From Frankia sp. R82 (lineage in GTDB: Bacteria > Actinomycetota > Actinomycetes > Frankiales > Frankiaceae), in contig NZ_JAMQQG010000001.1 of NCBI RefSeq assembly GCF_023716925.1, forward strand, positions 127,887 to 180,920: a stretch of 53,034 bases of DNA, in the 5' to 3' direction. The notes under the pieces are model-generated. The model saw only the letters and a program-made list of their open reading frames with translations. It was not told the origin of the DNA and searched no databases. Shown piece by piece: positions 6,687-37,220 of the stretch (position 1 is its first letter; the number at the start of each line of letters is the position of its first letter). Both the position numbers and the translations under genes were made by a program.

Positions 6687-9610
6687 CCGTCGGTTCCGAT
6701 CTGGTTGGGGGGATGCGGGCCGCGGGCCTGGAGGTTCGCGACGATCGCGCGACGTTGGCGATGTACGCGACCGACGCGTCGCTCTACCGGGTCCCGCCGC
6801 TGGCCGTGGTGCGTCCCCGGCACGTCGCCGACGTGGCGAGCGCGCTCGGGATCGCCCGGGAGCACGGGGTCGCCTTCACCGCCCGCGGCGGTGGCACGTC
6901 CATCGCGGGCAACGCGATCGGGCCGGGCGTGGTGCTCGACTTCAGCCGGCACCTGAACCGGGTGCTCGAGGTGGACGCCGACGCGCGCACCGCGGTGGTC
7001 GAGCCCGGCATCGTGCACGCGGATCTGCAGAAGGTCGTGCTGCCGCTCGGGCTGCGTTTCGGCCCCGACCCGTCCAGCCATTCGCGCTGCACCATCGGCG
7101 GAATGATCGGCAACAACGCCTGTGGCAGCCGGGCGCTGGGCTACGGGCGCACCAGCGACAACGTCGTCGCGATGACCCATCTGCTGGCCTCGGGCGAGAC
7201 GCTGCGCACCGGCTACACCGGTATCGCTGGCGGTCCCCGCACCGGTGCGGCGCCCGTCGTCGACGGCCCGGAACGCCTGCTGACCGACCTGCGGGCGGCA
7301 GCCGGGCGTCATCTCGGCGCGGCCCGCACCGAGTTCGACACCTTCGGTCGCCAGCTGTCCGGCTACGCCGTGCACCATCTGCTGCCCGAACGGTTCGACC
7401 TGGGACAGGCCCTCATCGGCTCCGAGGGCACCCTCGGCATCCTCACCCAGGCCACCGTACGGCTGGTGAAGGATCCTGATCATCGGGTTCTGGTCGCGCT
7501 CGGCTTCGCCGACATCGTGCAGGCCGGGCACGCGGCACCGACGGTGGTGACGTTCGGTCCGACCGCCTGCGAGGGGATGGACCAGCGGCTGGTCGACGTC
7601 CTGCGCTCCCGACGCGGCGACGGTGCGGTCCCATCGTTGCCCCGTGGCGGCGCCTGGCTGTTCGTGGAGATCGCCGGCGACGACCGCACCGAGGTCCTGG
7701 ACCGGGCGACCGCGCTGGCCGCCGCCGACCTGGGCACCGAGACCCGGATCGTCACCGATCCCGCGGAGCAGGCCCGGCTGTGGCGCATCCGCGAGGACGG
7801 CGCCGGCCTCGCCGGGCGGGCGCCGTCGGGCCAGCCGGCCTGGCCCGGGCTCGAGGACGCCGCGGTGCCGCCCGCGCGGCTCGGGGACTATCTCGCGCGC
7901 TTCGACGAGCTGGTCGCCGACCACGGGATGACGTCCGCGCCCTACGGCCACTTCGGCGACGGCTGCATGCACGTGCGGCTCGACTTCCCGCTGGCCCGTC
8001 CGGACGGGTTGGCGGTACTGCGCCGGTTCCTGACCGCGGCCGCCGCGCTGGTCACCGAGTTCGGCGGCTCGATCTCGGGCGAGCACGGGGACGGCCGGGC
8101 CCGCGGCGAGCTGCTCGCCCAGATGTACTCCGCCGACGCCATCGCCCTGTTCGGCGCGGTCAAGCACGCGTTCGACCCCGACAACCGGCTCAACCCCGGG
8201 GTCCTGGTCAACCCCGACCCCTTCGACGCAAACGTGCGGATGAGCGGGGTGACCTACCGCAGGGACCTCGCGTTCACCTATCCGCACGACGGCGGCGACC
8301 TCGCCCAGGCCCTGCACCGCTGCACCGGCGTGGGCCGCTGCCGCGCCGACAACACCGCGGCCGGCGGGGTGATGTGCCCGTCGTATCTCGCCACCCGGGA
8401 GGAGAAGGACTCCACCCGCGGCCGGGCCCGGGTCCTGCAGGACGTCGTGCGCGGCGACCTGGACTGGCGGGCCCCCGCGGTGCTCGATGTCCTGGATCTG
8501 TGCCTTTCCTGCAAGGGCTGCGCCGCCGACTGCCCGACCGGCGTCGACATGGCCACCTACAAGTCCGAGGCCCTGCACCAGCGCTACCGGCACCGGCCGC
8601 GGCCACGCTCCCACTACAGTCTGGGCTGGCTGCCGCGCTGGGCACGGCTCGCCGGACGGGCGCCGCGGCTGGTGAACCTGCTGGCGAAGACCCCCGTCCT
8701 CGGCAAGGCCGGGCTCACCCTGGCCGGAGTGGACCGACGCCGCACCGTCCCCGCGTTCGCGCCGGTCCCGTTCCGTCGCTGGTGGGCCGACCAGCCCGAG
8801 GCCGCCACGTCAGGCCCGTCGACGCCGGGCCTGACGGCTGCGGGCCTCTCGGCTGCGGGCGTCTCCGGCTCGGGGACCCCGGTGCCGCCCGCGACGCCGG
8901 TGCTGCTGTTCGTCGACTCCTTCTCCGAGTCCTTCTCACCGGCGGCCGCGGCGGCCACGGTGCGCGTGCTGCGCGCGGCGGGGTACGAGCCCCGGCTGCC
9001 CTCGTCCGGTACCTGCTGTGGCCTGACCTGGATCACCACCGGCCAGTTGGACGCCGCCCGCCGCATTCTCGGACGGACGGTGACCGAGCTCGCGGCCGCC
9101 GTCCGCGACGGCATCCAGATCGTCGGCATCGAGCCGTCCTGCACCGCGGTGCTGCGTTCCGACGCCGTCGAACTGCTCGGCGGCACCGACCAGGCGCAGG
9201 ACGCGCACCTGGTGGCCGGCGCCACCCGCACCCTGGCCGAACTGCTGGCCGGCACGCCCGGCTGGACGCCGCCCGATCTGACCGGCACCACCGTCGTGGC
9301 CCAGCCCCACTGCCACCACCATGCGGTGCTCGGGTGGGCGGCCGACCGGGCTTTGCTCGAACGCACCGGCGCCACCGTCACGACCCTCGCCGGCTGCTGC
9401 GGGCTCGCCGGCAACTTCGGCGTCGAGATCGGGCACTACGAGGTGTCGGTCGCCGTCGCCGGCCAGCAGCTGCTGCCGGCCCTGGACGCCGCCCCGGACG
9501 CCGTCGTGCTCGCCGACGGCTTCTCCTGCCGTACCCAGATCGCCGACCTGCGCCACCGCCCCGCCGTCCACCTGGCCGAACTGCTCGCTGCGGCTCCTCA
9601 GCTCAGCTGA
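6683..9610 (+). CDS. FAD/4Fe-4S D-2-hydroxyacid dehydrogenase, probably D-2-hydroxyglutarate dehydrogenase (YdiJ/Dld-like)
   Basis: 975 residues from GTG 6683, overlapping serA by GTGA. Order of domains: PCMH FAD-binding (about 30-260, RGGGTSIAGN, CTIGGMIGNNACGSRALGYGR), FAD-oxidase C-terminal domain (about 265-515, GHFGDGCMH, SGEHGDGRARGE, DPDNRLNPG), a ferredoxin-like pair (CTGVGRCR..CP near 548-570 and CLSCKGCAADCPTG near 608), then two CCG-type Cys motifs (SGTCCGLTW and AGCCGLAGNFG). This is a single-chain version of glycolate-oxidase D and F functions. The overlap with serA supports D-2-hydroxyglutarate as substrate, made by SerA and recycled here; D-lactate is the alternative. Electron acceptor unknown. 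A Ser/Ala/Gly-rich linker near 700-725 varies in such proteins. Confidence 0.88.
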   Translation: MTVGSDLVGGMRAAGLEVRDDRATLAMYATDASLYRVPPLAVVRPRHVADVASALGIAREHGVAFTARGGGTSIAGNAIGPGVVLDFSRHLNRVLEVDADARTAVVEPGIVHADLQKVVLPLGLRFGPDPSSHSRCTIGGMIGNNACGSRALGYGRTSDNVVAMTHLLASGETLRTGYTGIAGGPRTGAAPVVDGPERLLTDLRAAAGRHLGAARTEFDTFGRQLSGYAVHHLLPERFDLGQALIGSEGTLGILTQATVRLVKDPDHRVLVALGFADIVQAGHAAPTVVTFGPTACEGMDQRLVDVLRSRRGDGAVPSLPRGGAWLFVEIAGDDRTEVLDRATALAAADLGTETRIVTDPAEQARLWRIREDGAGLAGRAPSGQPAWPGLEDAAVPPARLGDYLARFDELVADHGMTSAPYGHFGDGCMHVRLDFPLARPDGLAVLRRFLTAAAALVTEFGGSISGEHGDGRARGELLAQMYSADAIALFGAVKHAFDPDNRLNPGVLVNPDPFDANVRMSGVTYRRDLAFTYPHDGGDLAQALHRCTGVGRCRADNTAAGGVMCPSYLATREEKDSTRGRARVLQDVVRGDLDWRAPAVLDVLDLCLSCKGCAADCPTGVDMATYKSEALHQRYRHRPRPRSHYSLGWLPRWARLAGRAPRLVNLLAKTPVLGKAGLTLAGVDRRRTVPAFAPVPFRRWWADQPEAATSGPSTPGLTAAGLSAAGVSGSGTPVPPATPVLLFVDSFSESFSPAAAAATVRVLRAAGYEPRLPSSGTCCGLTWITTGQLDAARRILGRTVTELAAAVRDGIQIVGIEPSCTAVLRSDAVELLGGTDQAQDAHLVAGATRTLAELLAGTPGWTPPDLTGTTVVAQPHCHHHAVLGWAADRALLERTGATVTTLAGCCGLAGNFGVEIGHYEVSVAVAGQQLLPALDAAPDAVVLADGFSCRTQIADLRHRPAVHLAELLAAAPQLS

Positions 9611-29357: not shown

Positions 29358-31067
29358 TTAGTGAATCCCTTCCGCGAAGGGCCCGAGAGCCAGCGCGGGA
29401 AAGAAGGTGAGCGCCACGATGATCAGGGTGACGCCGGCGAGCATGCCGACGAACTGGGGCCGGTGCGTCGGCAACGTTCCGGCGGTGACGGGAACCGGAG
29501 CCTGCCGGGCGAGCGACCCCGAAAGCCCCAGCACGAAAATCAGCGGCAGGAACCGGCCGAACATCATCGCCAGGCCGAGCGCGGTGTTGTACCAGGTGGT
29601 GTTCACCGTGATTCCGGCGAAGGCCGAACCGTTGTTGTTCCCGGCGGAGGTGAATGCGTAGAGAACCTCGGACAGCCCGTGCGCGCCACCGTTCAGCATC
29701 CCGGCCCGCTGACCCGGCATCGCCATCGCGACCCCGGTTCCCAGCAGCACGATGATCGGTGTGGTCAGGAAGTACAGCGACGCGAACTTCATCTCTCGCG
29801 CACCGATCTTCTTTCCGATGTACTCCGGCGTGCGCCCAATCATCAGCCCGGCGACGAAGACCGTCACCACGGCGAGCACCAGCATTCCGTAGAGACCCGA
29901 CCCGGTACCGCCTGGTGCCACCTCACCCAGCATCATGTTGAACAGCAGCGAGGCACCGCCGAGACTGGTGTAGGAGTCGTGGAAGGAGTTCACCGCACCG
30001 GTCGACGTCAGCGTCGTGGCGGTGGCGAAAACCGCCGAGTTCGCGACGCCGAACCGGGCGTCCGTGCCCTCGGTGGCGGCACCGACGGCCTCGGGAACAG
30101 TCCCGTGGTGGGCGGCCTGGAAGGCCATGTTCACCGCGAGGCTGCCCAGCGCGATCAGTGCCATCGCGGCGACGATCGCCAGGCCCTGCCGCTTGTCCCC
30201 GACCAGACGGCCGAACGTCCGCGGCAGTGAGAAACCGATCATGAGCAGCAGGTAGATCTCGAACAGGTTCGTCCACGCCGCCGGGTTCTCGAACGGATGC
30301 GCGGAGTTGACGTTGTAGAAGCCGCCGCCGTTGGTGCCGAGCTCCTTGATGATCTCCTGGCTGGCCACCGGCCCCCCGGTGATCGCCTGCTTGCCGCCGG
30401 CCACGGTCGACACCACATGGTTGCCGTGCAGATTCTGGATCGCCCCGCCGGCGATCAGCACAATCGCCCCGAGGACGCAGATCGGCAGCAGGATCCGCAC
30501 GATCGTCCGGGTCAGATCGACCCAGAAGTTGCCGATCTCGTCGCCGGTGCCCACGACACCGTCCATGCTGCCTGGCCCGGTCGCGACCGGCGCCCGACGG
30601 CGCGCGAAGCCCCGAACGACGGCGATCGCCACCGCGATCCCGACCGCGGCCGAGGCGAAGTTCTGCACGGCGAGACCCGTCATCTGGGTGACGTGCGACA
30701 TCGTCGACTCACCCGAGTACGCCTGCCAGTTGGTGTTGGTCGTGAAGCTCACGGCCGTGTTCCAGGCCAGTGCGGGCGACACCCCGGAGAAACCCAGATT
30801 CCACGGCAGATGCTCCTGCACCCGCTGCATCAGGTACAGGAACAGCACGGACACCAGCGAGAACGCCAGCACGCTGCGGGCGTACACCGTCCACCGCTGA
30901 CCCACGTTCGGATTCACGCCGGTCAGCCGGTAGATCGCCCGCTCCGCCGGCAGGTGCTTCTCGCTCGTGTACACCCGGTACATGTAGTCGCCGAACGGCC
31001 GATACGTCACCACCAAAGCGGCGACCAGCAGCAGGACGACCAGAATACCGGCAGTCGAGGTCGACAC
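29358..31067 (-). CDS. kdpA: potassium-transporting ATPase subunit KdpA
   Basis: 569 residues from GTG 31067, which shares one base with the kdpF stop. Ten or so hydrophobic segments and the four K+ filter regions are present: [49 protein letters not shown] and [29 protein letters not shown] near the N-terminus is also conserved. It is the high-affinity channel-like subunit at the membrane. Confidence 0.97.
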
Positions 31068-31156
31068 TAGAAACGCTCCGGAAAAAGCAGGGCCGCGATC
31101 ATGAGGATACCCAGCCCGATCGCCAGGACGAGGCCGGCGATGTTCTCCGCGGTCAC
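31067..31156 (-). CDS. kdpF: KdpF small membrane subunit
   Basis: 29 residues from GTG 31156: one hydrophobic helix [20 protein letters not shown] ending PERF, the typical KdpF size and end. Its stop TAG shares one base with the kdpA GTG. Its GTG overlaps the stop of the small upstream reading frame (GTGA). KdpF stabilises the complex, possibly by binding lipid at KdpA. Confidence 0.9.
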
Positions 31157-31236
31157 AGCCGCTCGACCCCCCGCAGAACAAGCGCCAACAGCGCGAAACA
31201 CGCCAGTGTCAGCGCCACGTACACCACGTCGAGCAC
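31153..31236 (-). CDS. 27-residue membrane micropeptide, first gene of the kdp operon
   Basis: GTG 31236 is preceded by GGGAGG at 5-bp spacing. The product is one hydrophobic helix ([20 protein letters not shown]) followed by a short basic/acidic end VERL, and the TGA overlaps the kdpF GTG. The strong ribosome binding site and exact coupling argue for translation. It is not KdpF itself, which follows, but has similar size. I recall comparable small frames ahead of kdpF in other actinobacteria without an established function. Confidence 0.72.
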
Positions 31237-31345
31237 GAGTCCTCCCTCTCCAGCGGCGAAAGCCGGTCCCGCTGGACCACCGAGAACGGACGGTCGAGCG
31301 GGCAGCGTCGCCAGTAAAGCGCGATCGCTCCCGGTTTTGGTGATC

Positions 31346-31395
31346 TCTCACGGGTTTCTAACGGCGGCGGGACCCTTTCTCACAGGACACTAACG
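31346..31395. promoter_or_regulatory. pair of 18-bp direct repeats in the kdpF/kdpD divergent promoter region
   Basis: TCTCACGGGTTTCTAACG (31346-31363) and TCTCACAGGACACTAACG (31378-31395) match at 14 of 18 positions. The shared ends are TCTCAC and CTAACG. They start 32 bp apart, about three helical turns, in the 232-bp gap between divergent kdp transcripts. This is the expected place for KdpE binding, and paired direct repeats suit an OmpR-family dimer. No experimental link is available here. Confidence 0.55.
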
Positions 31396-31468
31396 CCGAT
31401 CATGAAAATCGCCGGATGAAGCGGCCGCGGGCCTTCCGGCGGGGCGTCGTCGCCCGCACCATGGGCAG

Positions 31469-34198
31469 GTGACACGAGGAACTCTGCGGATCTATCTGGG
31501 CGCGGCCCCCGGCGTGGGCAAGACCTACGCCGCGCTGGACGAAGCCCACCGGCGGGCCGAACGGGGCACCGACGTCGTCGTCGGCTTCCTCGAGACCCAC
31601 GGCCGGCCGCGTACCGCCGCGATGCTCGACGACCTGGAGATCGTTCCCCGGCGGATCCTGGAGTACCGGGGCGGATCGTTCACCGAGATGGACCTCGACG
31701 CCGTCCTCGCCCGCCACCCCGAGGTCGCGTTCGTCGACGAGCTGGCGCACACCAACATCCCCGGCAGTCGGCACACCAAGCGGTGGCAGGACGTCCAGGA
31801 GCTGCTCGCCGCCGGCATCGACGTCATCACCACCGTCAACGTCCAGCATCTGGAGTCACTCAACGACGTCGTGGAGACCATCACCGGCGTCCCGCAGCGC
31901 GAGACCGTGCCCGACGACATCGTCCGCCGGGCCGACCAGGTCGAGCTCGTCGACATGGCCCCCGAGGCACTGCGCCGCCGGATGGCCCACGGCAACATCT
32001 ACGCCCCGGAGAAGGTGGACGCCGCGCTGTCGAACTACTTCCGCGTCGGCAACCTCACCGCCCTGCGCGAGCTCGCCCTGCTCTGGCTGGCCGGCAAGGT
32101 CGACGACCAGCTTGACCGCTACCGTGCCGACCACGGCATCGGCGGCACCTGGGAGACCCGCGAACGCGTCGTCGTCGCGCTCACCGGCGGCCCGGAGGGC
32201 GACACGCTGATCCGTCGGGCCAGTCGCATCGCCGCCCGCAGCAAGGGAGCCGATCTGCTCGCCGTCCACATCGCCCGCTCCGACGGGCTCACCGGCGCCG
32301 ACCCCTCCGCCCTCGCCCGCCAACGAGCCCTCGTCGAGAGTCTCGGCGGCAGCTACCACCAGGTCATCGGCGACGACGTCCCCACCGCCCTGCTCGACTT
32401 CGCCCGCGCCGAGAACGCCACCCAGCTCGTCCTCGGTGCCAGCCGCCGCGGTCGCCTCGCCCGCATCCTCAGCCCCGGCATCGGCACGACCACGACGAGC
32501 AGATCCGGCTCCATCGACGTCCACATGGTCACCCACGCCGAGGCCTGGGGACACCGACCGGCCCCAGCGAGCGTCGAGGACGGGCACACACGCCGGATCG
32601 GCAGGTCCGAATGGCGGTTGCCCCGCACTCGGACCGCCCTGGAGCCCCGTCGACGGATCATCGCCACGGCGCTCACGCTCGCCCTCGTCCCGGCGCTCAC
32701 CGCCGGGCTCACCGCCAGCCGCGGCACGTTCAACCTGACCACGGAGATGCTCGCCTACCTGCTCGTCGTGGTCACCGTGGCCCTGGTCGGCGGGTTCGGC
32801 CCCGCGCTGCTCTGCGCCGTGGCCAGCTCGCTGTTGCTCAACTACTACTTCACCGCCCCGGTCAACGAGTGGACCATCGCGGACGGCGACAACGCCCTGG
32901 CGCTGCTGGGCTTCGTCCTCGTCGCCGGCCTGGTCAGCCGGGTCGTTTCCACCTCCGCCCGGCGCTACGGGCAGGCCGTGCGCGCCTCTGCCGAAGCCGC
33001 CACCCTCTCCGTGCTCGCCGGCAGCGTCCTGCGCGGCGAGGACGCGCTGCCCGCCCTCCTCGCCCGCGCCCAGGAGACCTTCGGGATGACCTCGGTGACG
33101 CTGCTCGAACGCACCGGGGACGGGCAGGCCGCGGCCAGGTGGCACCCGGTCATGACCGTCGGCACCGATCCGTCCGCCGTACAGGACGGTACCGGGCAGA
33201 ACAGTGCCACCCAGAGCGGTGCCACACAGAGCGGTGTCGCACAGAGCGGTGCGTCGCCCGACCGCGGCGGCCACGACGACCGGGTCGACATTCCCGTCCG
33301 CGACAACCTGTGCCTTTCCCTGACCGGACGATCACTCCCCGCCGCCGACCGGCGGATTCTCACCGCCTTCGCCGCCCAGGCCGCCGTCGCCCTCGACCAG
33401 CACCGCCTGCGCGAAGCCGCAGCCGAAGCCGCGCCGATCGCCGCGGCCGACCGGGTCCGCACCGCCCTGCTCACCGCCGTCAGCCACGACCTGCGCACCC
33501 CGCTCGCGGCGGCCAAGGCCGCCATCAGCGGGCTGCGCGGCCACGACATCACCCTCACCGACGACGAACAGGCCGAACTCCTCGCCACCGCCGACGAATC
33601 CCTCGACAAGCTGACCCGACTCGTCGAGAACCTGCTCGACATGTCCCGCCTGCAGGCCGGCGCCCTCAGTATTTTCTCCCGCCCCATCGGCCTCGACGAC
33701 ATCGTCGCCCCCGCCCTCGACGAGATCGGCCCCTCCGCGGGCCGGATCGGGGTCCAGGTCCCCGACGACCTGCCCGCCGTCCTGGCCGACCCGGCCCTGC
33801 TGGAACGGGTGATCGTCAACCTCGTCGCCAACGCGCTGCACCACGCCCCCGCCGCCACCCCGCCGATCATCACCGCCAGCGCCCTCGCGGACCGCGTCGA
33901 GCTGCGGGTCATCGACCGCGGCCCCGGCATCCCCACCGCGCAGCACGGCACCGTCTTCCAGCCGTTCCAACGCCTCGGCGACCACGACAACACCACCGGG
34001 GTCGGCCTCGGCCTCGCGCTCTCCCGCGGCCTCACCGAAGCCATGAACGGCACCCTCACCCCCGAGGAGACCCCCGGCGGCGGCCTCACCATGGTCCTTT
34101 CCCTGCCCGCCGCCCCCAGCCCGACGACCACGACCCCGCCGGACGCGCTCACCGACCCGACAGCACAGCAGCCGGAACTGCCCACCGGGCCGCGCTGA
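31469..34198 (+). CDS. kdpD: KdpD sensor histidine kinase
   Basis: 909 residues. KdpD N-terminal domain with Walker A GAAPGVGKT (11-19) and DELAHTN; USP-like domain (about 230-350); DUF4118 membrane part with about four helices (395-490); GAF-like region (505-640); HisKA with His673 in AVSHDLRTPLA; and HATPase (NLVANALHHA, DRGPGIP, GVGLGLALSRG). A Gln/Ser/Ala/Gly repeat (SATQSGATQSGVAQSGAS) interrupts the GAF-like region and is coded by 15-bp repeats. Start GTG 31469 has a poor ribosome binding site and is overlapped by a four-codon ATG frame (31459-31470) that ends on it. It is divergent from kdpF. Confidence 0.95.
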   Translation: MTRGTLRIYLGAAPGVGKTYAALDEAHRRAERGTDVVVGFLETHGRPRTAAMLDDLEIVPRRILEYRGGSFTEMDLDAVLARHPEVAFVDELAHTNIPGSRHTKRWQDVQELLAAGIDVITTVNVQHLESLNDVVETITGVPQRETVPDDIVRRADQVELVDMAPEALRRRMAHGNIYAPEKVDAALSNYFRVGNLTALRELALLWLAGKVDDQLDRYRADHGIGGTWETRERVVVALTGGPEGDTLIRRASRIAARSKGADLLAVHIARSDGLTGADPSALARQRALVESLGGSYHQVIGDDVPTALLDFARAENATQLVLGASRRGRLARILSPGIGTTTTSRSGSIDVHMVTHAEAWGHRPAPASVEDGHTRRIGRSEWRLPRTRTALEPRRRIIATALTLALVPALTAGLTASRGTFNLTTEMLAYLLVVVTVALVGGFGPALLCAVASSLLLNYYFTAPVNEWTIADGDNALALLGFVLVAGLVSRVVSTSARRYGQAVRASAEAATLSVLAGSVLRGEDALPALLARAQETFGMTSVTLLERTGDGQAAARWHPVMTVGTDPSAVQDGTGQNSATQSGATQSGVAQSGASPDRGGHDDRVDIPVRDNLCLSLTGRSLPAADRRILTAFAAQAAVALDQHRLREAAAEAAPIAAADRVRTALLTAVSHDLRTPLAAAKAAISGLRGHDITLTDDEQAELLATADESLDKLTRLVENLLDMSRLQAGALSIFSRPIGLDDIVAPALDEIGPSAGRIGVQVPDDLPAVLADPALLERVIVNLVANALHHAPAATPPIITASALADRVELRVIDRGPGIPTAQHGTVFQPFQRLGDHDNTTGVGLGLALSRGLTEAMNGTLTPEETPGGGLTMVLSLPAAPSPTTTTPPDALTDPTAQQPELPTGPR

Positions 34199-34260: not shown

Positions 34261-34390
34261 TAGGCTGTCCTCGGAGCGCCGGGAAGTCTGGTCGGCACGC
34301 AAGCCTGGCTGATGAGAGCCGTCTGTTGGAGTCTCGTCGGACCAGGGCTTCAGGCAGCGTGCGAACCGGGCGGAGTGGAGGAAACCGGCG
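34261..34390 (+). promoter_or_regulatory. candidate structured leader RNA (riboswitch-like) of the cation/proton antiporter
   Basis: A TAGGCT (34261-34266) could be a -10, giving a transcript start near 34273. The leader then holds several complementary pairs. CGCCGG (34277-34282) pairs with CCGGCG (34385-34390), which contains the G of the GTG start. GCACGC (34295-34300) pairs with GCGTGC (34357-34362), continued by GCCTG (34303-34307) with CAGGC (34351-34355). A crossing pair CTGGTC (34288-34293) with GACCAG (34340-34345) would make a pseudoknot. GTCTG (34321-34325) can compete for the same 3' bases (34338-34342). The ribosome binding site GGAGG lies inside the outer helix. No match to a named riboswitch was made. 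Confidence 0.5.
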
Positions 34391-35937
34391 TGGGGATCGT
34401 GCTCATCCTGGTCATCCTCGCCACCGTCGTCGCGACGTTCGCCCACCGGCTGTCGGTACCGGCACCGTCCCTGCTCGTCGTCGCCGGCGTGCTGGTGGGC
34501 CTGCTGCCCGGCGTGCCACAGGTACGGGTCGAGCCGGACGTGGTGAGCACCGTCGTGCTCCCGCCGCTGCTGTACGCCGCGGCCGAGGAACTGTCCTGGC
34601 GCGACCTGCATGCGGTGCGGCGGCCGGTGGCCGTCCTCGCGCTCGGGCTCGTCCTCGCCTCGGCCGCGGCCGTCGGGCTGCTCGCGCTGGCGGTCACCCC
34701 GTTGTCGGCGGACATGGCCTTCGTTCTCGGCGCGGTGCTCGCCAGCACGGATCCCGTCGCGGTCTCCGCGCTGGGTCGTCGGCTGGCATTGCCGCCCCGG
34801 GTGCAGGCACTGGTCCAGGCCGAGAGCCTCTTCAACGACGCCACCAGCCTGGTGCTCTTTCGCGTCGCGGTCGGTATCGCGGTCGCCTCGGGGGCGATCT
34901 CCTGGGTGCACGTGGCCGGGGAGTTCGGCTGGCTCGCGGGCGGCGGAGCGGTGGTCGGCGCACTGGTCGCCGCGGGCGTCACCCTGATCCGCCGCCGGAC
35001 CGAGGACCCGGTGCTCGAGACCGTGATCGCCCTCGTGACGCCCTACGCCGGCTACCTGCTGGCGGAACGGCTGGGTGCCTCCGGGATCAGCGCCGTCGTG
35101 GTCGCCGGTGTCGTCCTCGGCACGCAGACCGCTGACATCACCACCAGTCGCATCCGGCTACAGCTGCACGCCGTGTACGGCACCGTCGTCTTCCTGCTGG
35201 AAAGCGTCGTGTTCGCGCTGATCGGGCTCCAGCTACCCACCCTGGTCCGGGATCTCTCCGGGCCCGGAGCGTGGTGGCCGCTGGCAGCACTGGCCATCAG
35301 CGGCATGCTCCTGGCCATCCGCGCGGTCTGGGTGTTCCCGCTGTCCGCGGCCATGCAGCGGCGCCGGGGAGCCCGCCCGTCGTGGCGGATACCGCTCGTC
35401 GTGTCCTGGGCCGGGGCGCGCGGCGTCCTCCCGCTGGCCGCCGCCCTGTCGATCCCGCTGACCGACCATGCCGGCCACCCGTTGCCGGACCGTGAGCTCG
35501 TTCTCCTGCTGACCGCCAGCGTCATCGTCGTGACCCTCACCGTCCAGGGCTTCACCCTCGCCCCGCTGGTGCGCCGGACCGGCATCGCCCGCACGCCCCA
35601 GGACATCGTCCTGGAGGGCCTCCGGACCAGGCTGCGGATCACCCACGTCGCCCTGGAACGCCTGAATGAGATGACTGGTCTGGAGGTGGCTCCGGAGGTC
35701 GTGATCGACCGGCTCCGTCGGGAGCTGACCAACCGAATCGACCAGCTGGACGCCGGCAAGGACGACGGGCGTCCCGATCCGACCGCGGCCTCCTACCGGG
35801 GGTTGCGTCGCGACCTCATCGCCCTGGAGAACGCCGAGCTGAACCGGCTCTACGAAACCGGACACATCAGTGACACCACGCGTCGAAGCATCCAGCGCGC
35901 ACTCGACCTGGAAGACATCGGACTGGGCGACGACTGA
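34390..35937 (+). CDS. CPA1-family Na+(K+)/H+ antiporter
   Basis: 515 residues from GTG 34390 (VGIVLILVILATVVATF), with GGAGG upstream; an ATG at 34312 would put 26 non-conserved residues inside the structured leader. About twelve hydrophobic helices; STDPVAVSALG and the ion-site Asp in ESLFNDATSLVLF mark NhaP/YjcE-type exchangers. Also WAGARGVLPLAAALS. A cytosolic tail (about 410-515) is predicted helical. Located after kdpD, it suggests that K+ uptake and cation/proton exchange are coordinated. Confidence 0.93.
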   Translation: MGIVLILVILATVVATFAHRLSVPAPSLLVVAGVLVGLLPGVPQVRVEPDVVSTVVLPPLLYAAAEELSWRDLHAVRRPVAVLALGLVLASAAAVGLLALAVTPLSADMAFVLGAVLASTDPVAVSALGRRLALPPRVQALVQAESLFNDATSLVLFRVAVGIAVASGAISWVHVAGEFGWLAGGGAVVGALVAAGVTLIRRRTEDPVLETVIALVTPYAGYLLAERLGASGISAVVVAGVVLGTQTADITTSRIRLQLHAVYGTVVFLLESVVFALIGLQLPTLVRDLSGPGAWWPLAALAISGMLLAIRAVWVFPLSAAMQRRRGARPSWRIPLVVSWAGARGVLPLAAALSIPLTDHAGHPLPDRELVLLLTASVIVVTLTVQGFTLAPLVRRTGIARTPQDIVLEGLRTRLRITHVALERLNEMTGLEVAPEVVIDRLRRELTNRIDQLDAGKDDGRPDPTAASYRGLRRDLIALENAELNRLYETGHISDTTRRSIQRALDLEDIGLGDD

Positions 35938-35948
35938 CAGGAGTGGCC

Positions 35949-37220
35949 ATGAGTACGCCGTCGACGGCTGTATCGCGGGAGCTGCCTCGGCGGTTGGGGA
36001 TGTTCGACGCGGTGATGATCGGCCTGGGGTCGATGATCGGGGCGGGGGTCTTCGCCGCACTGGGACCGGCGGCGCAGGCGGCCGGATCCGGGTTGCTGCT
36101 CGGGCTGGCCTTCGCCGCCGTGGTCGCCTACTGCAACGCGACGTCGTCCGCGCGGCTGGCGGCCCGCTATCCGGCGTCGGGCGGCACCTACGTCTACGGT
36201 CGTGAGCGGCTCGGTGTCTTCTGGGGCTATCTGGCCGGATGGGCCTTCGTCGTCGGCAAGACCGCGTCCTGCGCGGCGATGGCCCTCACCGTCGGCTACT
36301 ACGTCTGGCCCGGCCAGGCCCATGCGGTGGCGGTGGTGGCGGTGATGGCGTTGACCGCGGTGAACTACGTCGGCGTGCGGAAGTCCGCCTGGCTCACCCG
36401 GGTGATCGTCGCGGTCGTCCTGACCGTGCTCGCCGCGGTGGTGGTCGCCGCCCTCACCTCGGCCACGTCGAACGTGGCCCGGTTGGACATCGGTGCGGAC
36501 GCCACGTTCGGCGGGATACTCCAGGCGGCTGGCCTGCTGTTCTTCGCGTTCGCGGGATACGCGCGCATCGCCACCCTCGGCGAGGAGGTCCGTGACCCGG
36601 CCCGCGTCATCCCCCGCGCCATCCCGACCGCCCTCGGTATCACCCTGGTCGTCTATGCCGCGGTGGCGATCGGGGCCCTGCTGGTGCTGGGTCCCCAGCG
36701 GCTGGCGGACGCCACCGCGCCGCTGTCGGACACCGTGCGTGCCGCCGGGGTCGGTTGGCTGACGCCGGTCGTCCGGGTCGGGGCGGCGGTCGCCGCGCTG
36801 GGTTCCCTGCTCGCGCTGATTCTCGGGGTTTCGCGCACCACCCTGGCGATGGCCCGCGACCGGCACCTGCCGCATGCCCTGGCCGCGGTCCATCCCCGGT
36901 TCGCGGTGCCGCACCGGGCCGAGCTTCTGGTCGGCGCGGTGGTGGCGATCCTGACCGCGGTCACGGACGTGCGCGGGGCGATCGGTTTCTCCTCCTTCGG
37001 CGTGCTGGGCTACTACGCCATCGCGAACGCGAGTGCCTGGACCCTCGCCCCGGACGAAGGCCGTCCACCGCGCGTCGTACCGGCGGTCGGGCTCGCCGGC
37101 TGCCTGGCCCTGGCCTTCGCCCTGCCGCTGTCCTCGGTGGTCGCTGGAGCCACGGTGCTCGCCGTCGGCGCCGCCACCCACGGCATTCGCCGAATCACCA
37201 CCGCCCAGCCGCGGGCATAG
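35949..37220 (+). CDS. APC-family amino acid permease
   Basis: 423 residues from ATG 35949, with AGGAG at 35939-35943. The first helix MFDAVMIGLGSMIGAGVFAAL holds the GxG-type substrate loop of the APC superfamily. About twelve helices follow. ARYPASGGTYVYGRERLG and FFAFAGYARIATLGEEVRDP are conserved. The tail is short. It starts 11 bp after the antiporter stop and is probably in the same transcript. Substrate unknown. Confidence 0.9.
   Translation: MSTPSTAVSRELPRRLGMFDAVMIGLGSMIGAGVFAALGPAAQAAGSGLLLGLAFAAVVAYCNATSSARLAARYPASGGTYVYGRERLGVFWGYLAGWAFVVGKTASCAAMALTVGYYVWPGQAHAVAVVAVMALTAVNYVGVRKSAWLTRVIVAVVLTVLAAVVVAALTSATSNVARLDIGADATFGGILQAAGLLFFAFAGYARIATLGEEVRDPARVIPRAIPTALGITLVVYAAVAIGALLVLGPQRLADATAPLSDTVRAAGVGWLTPVVRVGAAVAALGSLLALILGVSRTTLAMARDRHLPHALAAVHPRFAVPHRAELLVGAVVAILTAVTDVRGAIGFSSFGVLGYYAIANASAWTLAPDEGRPPRVVPAVGLAGCLALAFALPLSSVVAGATVLAVGAATHGIRRITTAQPRA

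Follow-up and report, generated by a model that had tools for sequence, protein, structure and literature searches.

The 53,034-nucleotide stretch of Frankia sp. R82 DNA analysed in this study (referred to as the window) contains a gene for a cation/proton antiporter, and the question raised by this locus is whether the leader in front of the gene acts as a regulatory RNA. A first-pass annotation had proposed a riboswitch-like cis-regulatory leader, a proposal that gains support from a conserved 25-nt motif and from the association of this motif with antiporter genes. We give a slightly better than even chance to the view that a cis-acting RNA regulator not described before, in all likelihood a class of riboswitch, resides in the leader and uses the 25-nt motif as its sensor. 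The leader belongs to an apparently undescribed actinobacterial RNA element that is associated with cation/proton antiporters.

The antiporter locus and the predicted fold of its leader

Profile searches assigned the gene to the CPA1 Na+/H+ antiporters (TIGR00831, 322 bits, above the cut-off; PF00999 also matched). The hexamer TAGGCT and the GTG start were found exactly where they had originally been annotated:

34261-34266, plus strand: -10-like hexamer TAGGCT, with a predicted transcription start at about 34273 (from the sequence and the TANNNT spacing across loci)
34377-34381, plus strand: Shine-Dalgarno-like GGAGG (from the sequence), unpaired in an internal loop of the predicted fold
34390-35937, plus strand: CPA1 Na+/H+ antiporter gene with a GTG start (TIGR00831, PF00999)

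An ATG at 34312 lies in frame and would add 26 codons to the antiporter, but it is the GTG at 34390 that has the Shine-Dalgarno-like GGAGG. Two kdp genes, kdpA on the minus strand and kdpD on the plus strand with its end at 34198, adjoin the antiporter gene upstream (window 29358-34198), which makes K+ uptake control and the antiporter direct neighbours, and an amino acid permease-like gene (window 35943-37217) is located close to its 3' end.

The regulatory proposal had been based on four complementary pairs preceding the GTG, all of which proved to be perfect: an outer pair (CGCCGG, 34277-34282, with CCGGCG, 34385-34390), the two segments of a two-part helix (GCACGC, 34295-34300, with GCGTGC, 34357-34362; GCCTG, 34303-34307, with CAGGC, 34351-34355) and a crossing pair (CTGGTC, 34288-34293, with GACCAG, 34340-34345). 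By themselves, these pairs prove little, since the stability of the leader fold is modest when compared with shuffled sequences (z -1.89; 8 of 200 shuffles were equally stable). When 34272-34410 is folded to minimum energy, the outer helix and the 34295-34300 helix both form. The crossing pair, which had been proposed to make a pseudoknot, is missing from this fold, its place being taken by an inner helix with a pair probability of at least 0.97; the pseudoknot therefore lacks support in the form first described. The parts of the predicted structure are:

34277-34282, plus strand: 5' strand of the putative alternative (OFF) outer helix (pair probability about 0.94)
34286-34292, plus strand: 5' strand of the alternative inner helix, GUCUGGU, within the 25-nt motif (predicted fold)
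34298-34364, plus strand: variable linker, predicted by folding to form a long hairpin, containing the remaining pairs of the first-pass annotation
34365-34371, plus strand: 3' strand of the inner helix, ACCGGGC; GACCAGAC of the ortholog pairs too (ortholog comparison, predicted fold)
34385-34390, plus strand: 3' strand of the outer helix, ending at the first base of the GTG (predicted fold; CCGGCG also occurs in the ortholog L003)

Both the z-score and the absent crossing pair are compatible with chance structure, i.e. with helices that are the ordinary complementarity of a GC-rich leader and have no regulatory role. We consider this very unlikely, because it leaves the 25-nt motif and its antiporter association unexplained, and it is disfavoured for 34273-34297. 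Judged by sequence comparison, it is this motif that is the non-random part of the leader.

A conserved 25-nt motif at the presumed 5' end of the transcript

The motif, with which the presumed transcript opens, and its hairpin (P1) have the following positions in the window:

34273-34297, plus strand: conserved 25-nt RNA motif GGAGCGCCGGGAAGTCTGGTCGGCA (cross-genome comparison)
34278-34281, plus strand: 5' strand of P1, GCCG (compensatory C-G to U-A change in L089 and L273; exception L047)
34293-34296, plus strand: 3' strand of P1, CGGC; the flanking C34277 and A34297 occupy a wobble-type position (comparison)

When 35 genomes of the family were searched at the DNA level, the close ortholog was identified (82% identity), and another 14 genomes unexpectedly gave short matches, in 13 cases to the first 39 nt of the leader. 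Allowing up to one mismatch, the 19-nt core GCCGGGAAGYCTGGTCGGC was detected in 32 of the 35 order genomes, which all belong to a single family (4 matches for the reversed control), and in 257 of the 393 class genomes sampled (9 matches for the reversed control), and an exact scan of named genomes yielded at least 119 stretches. Among the matches listed (80 titles), one is a Chloroflexi MAG and the others look actinobacterial by name; the carriers include Streptomyces, Frankia, Arthrobacter, mycobacteria and other actinobacteria. Genome G088 contains eight copies without a mismatch.

The conserved unit extends beyond the core pattern, as GG was present at positions -5/-4 in all 191 distinct exact-core copies and G at position -2 in 190 of them, which gives a length of about 25 nt and the consensus GGnGn-GCCGGGAAGNCKGGUCGGC-n (position 10 is any base and position 12 is T or G).

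The motif is located at the predicted transcription start. A TANNNT hexamer starting 17-19 nt before the core was found in 133 of the 191 loci, compared with 3.3 in base-order shuffles, which places the start at the motif and agrees with the earlier suggestion that the transcript begins just after TAGGCT. In four loci of the phylum sample (L285-L288) the motif is retained although, as read by eye, the -10-like hexamer is at a greater distance upstream and the motif is separated from the start codon by 12-14 nt; thus, the motif is not simply a part of the promoter.

Association with antiporter genes and orientation of the motif

An antiporter-like gene was present within 600 nt of 185 of 254 distinct copies: downstream and in sense in 177 cases, overlapping in sense in 5, upstream in sense in 2 and upstream in antisense in one. 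No such gene was found within this distance of the remaining 69 copies, 8 of which have less than 600 nt of sequence. Since the loci of six of these copies had been retrieved by way of an antiporter, we also counted without them: 179 of 248 distinct copies are then within 600 nt of an antiporter-like gene (171+5+2+1 in the same order), i.e. 171 of the 248 lie directly upstream of it in sense. In the pattern scan of named genomes, 84 of 131 copies among the matches listed were antiporter-near (81 immediately before the gene and 3 overlapping it, all in sense, with no other arrangement among the 84) and 47 had no antiporter-like gene within 600 nt.

The first gene after the motif was assigned with Pfam in 185 loci (two sets of 90 and 95, obtained from the 191 copies after omission of L163, which has no usable frame, and of five more). 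NhaA was the most frequent (113 loci; 62/90 and 51/95), followed by CPA-type exchangers (21; 11 and 10), CBS domain proteins (2 and 7), ABC ATPases (3 and 3) and PPDK_N (0 and 3), and there were single matches to TrkH, TrkA_N, a Na/Ca exchanger and a citrate/NhaB-like transporter. Some first genes, such as those for PPDK_N and hydrolases, have no obvious link to ions. A cluster of four permease-like first genes was also observed after the motif in other loci, one of which is named by Pfam at 1e-5.

Viewed from the side of the genes, 60 sampled class genomes contain 55 near-full-length NhaA genes, 29 of which have the motif within 500 nt upstream (10 of 65 matches, partial or weak, as well as two motif-pattern rows, in G051 and G070, that are near no listed NhaA gene, were excluded from this count). 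Long NhaA frames (at least 586 codons) make up 16 of the 26 genes without the motif vs 3 of the 29 with it; in other words, 16 of the 19 long-frame genes, which are possibly fusions, do not carry the motif. In G088, neighbouring STAS-domain-like, CPA1 and nhaA genes (L278, L280) each have their own motif copy, the gene labels having been read from the sequence and, for nhaA, also taken from the NhaA gene search.

Fixed spacing to a -10-like element (the 133 loci above), extreme sequence conservation that includes the letters of the stem, and a regulon-like set of ion-transport genes would also be expected of a DNA operator, namely a short inverted repeat just past the transcription start that is bound by an unknown actinobacterial repressor. 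CIRCE, a very conserved inverted repeat at transcript starts which is bound by HrcA, is an arrangement of this kind. In contrast to CIRCE, the motif has a short stem and a conserved asymmetric centre, and its orientation follows the gene: 184 of the 185 antiporter-near copies are in sense, so that the site is not independent of orientation. Moreover, closely spaced divergent genes do not share one site but have separate, opposed sense copies no more than 400 nt apart (five pairs: L026, L112, L156, L165 and L193), and L285-L288 keep the motif away from the usual promoter position. We therefore regard an operator as unlikely.

The motif hairpin and its covariation

P1 is a four-pair stem (GCCG/CGGC) with an inner G-U closure, a nearly invariant loop, GAAGNCKGG, and GGnG in front. 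Its covariation was analysed in alignment A3, which contains the distinct motif strings with fully Watson-Crick stems; five of the eight non-canonical matches were dropped, i.e. L047 and four copies with no antiporter nearby. In L047, located before an nhaA-like gene, a C replaces the G at position 1 and breaks the end pair of the stem. Across the 53 distinct strings of A3, pairs 1-19, 3-17 and 4-16 are constant, while pair 2-18 has changed from C-G to U-A in L089 and L273 (each has a -10-like hexamer and is followed by an NhaA-like gene) and from C-G to G-C in L274 (no antiporter nearby). By formal counting, both partners have changed in two pairs, including the position at the base of the stem, which is mostly unpaired; 37 of 500 shuffles reached the same number, and the percentage paired was not above that of the shuffles. 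The support from covariation is thus thin, consisting of two sound double changes plus L274, all at one pair. An alternative core hairpin, CCGG/CUGG, was rejected, as it showed no change on both sides and its pairs were broken in 4 and 1 of the 53 rows. A conserved structured RNA preceding functionally related genes, the general mark of a riboswitch, is nevertheless what the comparison revealed, with this thin support for the structured part.

The position at the base of the stem is U.G in 117, C.A in 69 and C-G in only 3 of 257 copies (50, 32 and 1 of 122 non-redundant leaders); because the copies are related, the significance given by a chi-square test on this position is too high. It is established RNA chemistry that U.G and protonated C.A form isosteric wobbles. 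The preference (U.G or C.A in 186 of the 257 copies) may mean that wobble geometry is needed, in which case a protonated C.A+ (C34277 and A34297 in the window) would let some copies sense pH directly. This would fit a natural aptamer of about 25 nt, placed at the 5' end of the mRNA and sensing Na+, Li+ or H+ across Actinomycetota, a reading that we put forward tentatively and that is rather unlikely in this full form. To our knowledge, such a motif would be among the smallest aptamers.

The observations that speak for an RNA element apply equally to an RNA-level site that binds no ligand and is recognized by a trans-acting protein or small RNA, and the nearly invariant loop letters would suit protein binding. 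A fully complementary small RNA is unlikely, since the genome of the window has a single core match on either strand at up to one mismatch, and we judge the trans-acting explanation as a whole to be improbable.

Comparison with known RNA classes

The window, its leader and the motif loci were compared with Rfam (4227 families; E<=10 for the window leader and L177, E<=5 for six further loci), and no family was found at the motif. The window leader gave only matches far below threshold, to sX15 and IRES_Hsp70, each located past the motif, L177 gave none, and none of those in the six further loci was at the motif; one scan found a tRNA away from it. The scans of the window and leader also gave no match to the ydaO (c-di-AMP) riboswitch, which bears out the original failure to recognize a known class. 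The ydaO, Li+-II (nhaA-II) and Na+-I (DUF1646) families were presumably all present in the scanned library. A targeted search of 13 genomes of the genus for Li+-I (nhaA-I, RF03057) gave nothing above the cut-off and nothing in the genome of the window; a sub-threshold match in another genome of the genus (L289 1501-1557, 31.6 bits, cut-off 37) is away from the motif copy of that genome.

The alx element is a much larger, yybP-ykoY-type RNA, and Rfam gave no match to it at the motif. The alx leader of E. coli is a pH-responsive RNA that adopts a translationally active structure if transcribed in alkali (PMC3874183). The Li+-I riboswitch is a validated ON switch for Li+ located before nhaA (PMC9646797). 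It resembles the motif in being a short leader RNA preceding nhaA genes; however, RF03057 is a 55-position, two-hairpin model that does not match the motif. Li+-II, a Li+-responsive nhaA leader RNA (PMC9646797), is similar in its location, but the scans of the motif loci gave no Li+-II match. The same applies to Na+-I (DUF1646) and Na+-II, which are leader RNAs preceding Na+ transporter genes, Na+-I being induced by Na+ (PMC9337991, PMC9646797): the transporter-gene context is alike, but there is no Rfam match at the motif.

Six core strings were absent from the openly licensed literature searched, in which no recognized description of the motif was found either, including the available parts of PMC9646797, PMC9337991, PMC11109978 and PMC8632094. 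A search of this literature for alkali-ion or actinobacterial riboswitches turned up, among the papers listed, only the Na+ and Li+ classes; the word stem Actino is absent from the main text of the papers on these classes, and a term search of two survey papers found no mention of nhaA.

Alternative pairing and the proposed switch

Of 122 non-redundant leaders, 28 contain CCGACC, the complement of motif positions 13-18, where shuffles give 8.5, and 51 contain CGACC, where shuffles give 21.6; none of 300 shuffles reached either count. Gene starts for the leader statistics were set by a simple Shine-Dalgarno score, some of them wrongly (e.g. L038, L202). Of the 51 leaders with CGACC, 71% have it at 9-25 nt upstream of the start codon (38% in shuffles), where its pairing would preclude the motif hairpin and abut the ribosome-binding site. 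GACCCC, which pairs with the motif only in part, was enriched as well, whereas pairing of GGUG or of the 5' half of the motif with leaders in general showed no enrichment, and other segments remained below the level of CCGACC. Enrichment for the complement of one motif segment is a further argument against the operator.

In the window, the predicted fold contains two nested helices, 34277-34282/34385-34390 and 34286-34292/34365-34371. The internal loop that separates them leaves the Shine-Dalgarno sequence unpaired, and pairing of the start codon is partial. P1 has zero probability in this fold, and forcing it costs about 9 kcal/mol; since both predicted helices use the motif strand, P1 would be excluded. 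The closest ortholog, L003, retains CCGGCG and has GACCAGAC opposite GUCUGGUC, and its predicted fold includes the inner but not the outer helix (CCGGCG is unpaired). The two-state fold of the window speaks for the proposed switch; the cost of P1, the unpaired Shine-Dalgarno sequence, the incomplete pairing of the start codon and the missing outer helix in the ortholog count against it, as do the enrichment of GACCCC, the 69 copies with no antiporter-like gene nearby and the first genes that have no obvious link to ions. The claim of an outer helix closing on the start codon stands for the predicted fold of the window but not as a general property of leaders, in 155 of which the complement CCGGC was rarer than in shuffles (10 vs 19.6). 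A likelier role for the outer helix is that of an alternative (OFF) pairing of the motif specific to the window.

The element probably turns translation on in response to Na+, Li+ or pH. We infer the ligand as well as the direction of the response, the ON state being assigned by analogy, from the antiporter-type genes and the known Na+/Li+ ON switches. Without the signal, the motif strand would pair with 34365-34371 and with the start-codon region, 34385-34390, and translation would be low; in the ligand-folded motif both helices would be lost and the antiporter would be made, the likeliest signal being Na+, Li+ or alkaline pH. The preference for translational control over a terminator, also part of the original proposal, is supported for the window, as a terminator search found no terminator-like site in its leader. 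If this interpretation is right, cation/proton homeostasis would be under widespread control of this kind in Streptomyces, Frankia, Arthrobacter, mycobacteria and other actinobacteria, and actinobacterial sensing of sodium, lithium or alkaline stress could be tested directly with one short RNA.

The copy in the Chloroflexi MAG (L101, 7039-7150) is followed by a terminator-like hairpin. This hairpin was read by eye, its loop being longer than the terminator search allows (the search gives another site there). Its 3' strand (7136-7142) is the complement of the 5' half of the motif (7042-7048), and seven T come after it. The pairing is a plausible antiterminator, which suggests transcriptional instead of translational control in L101.
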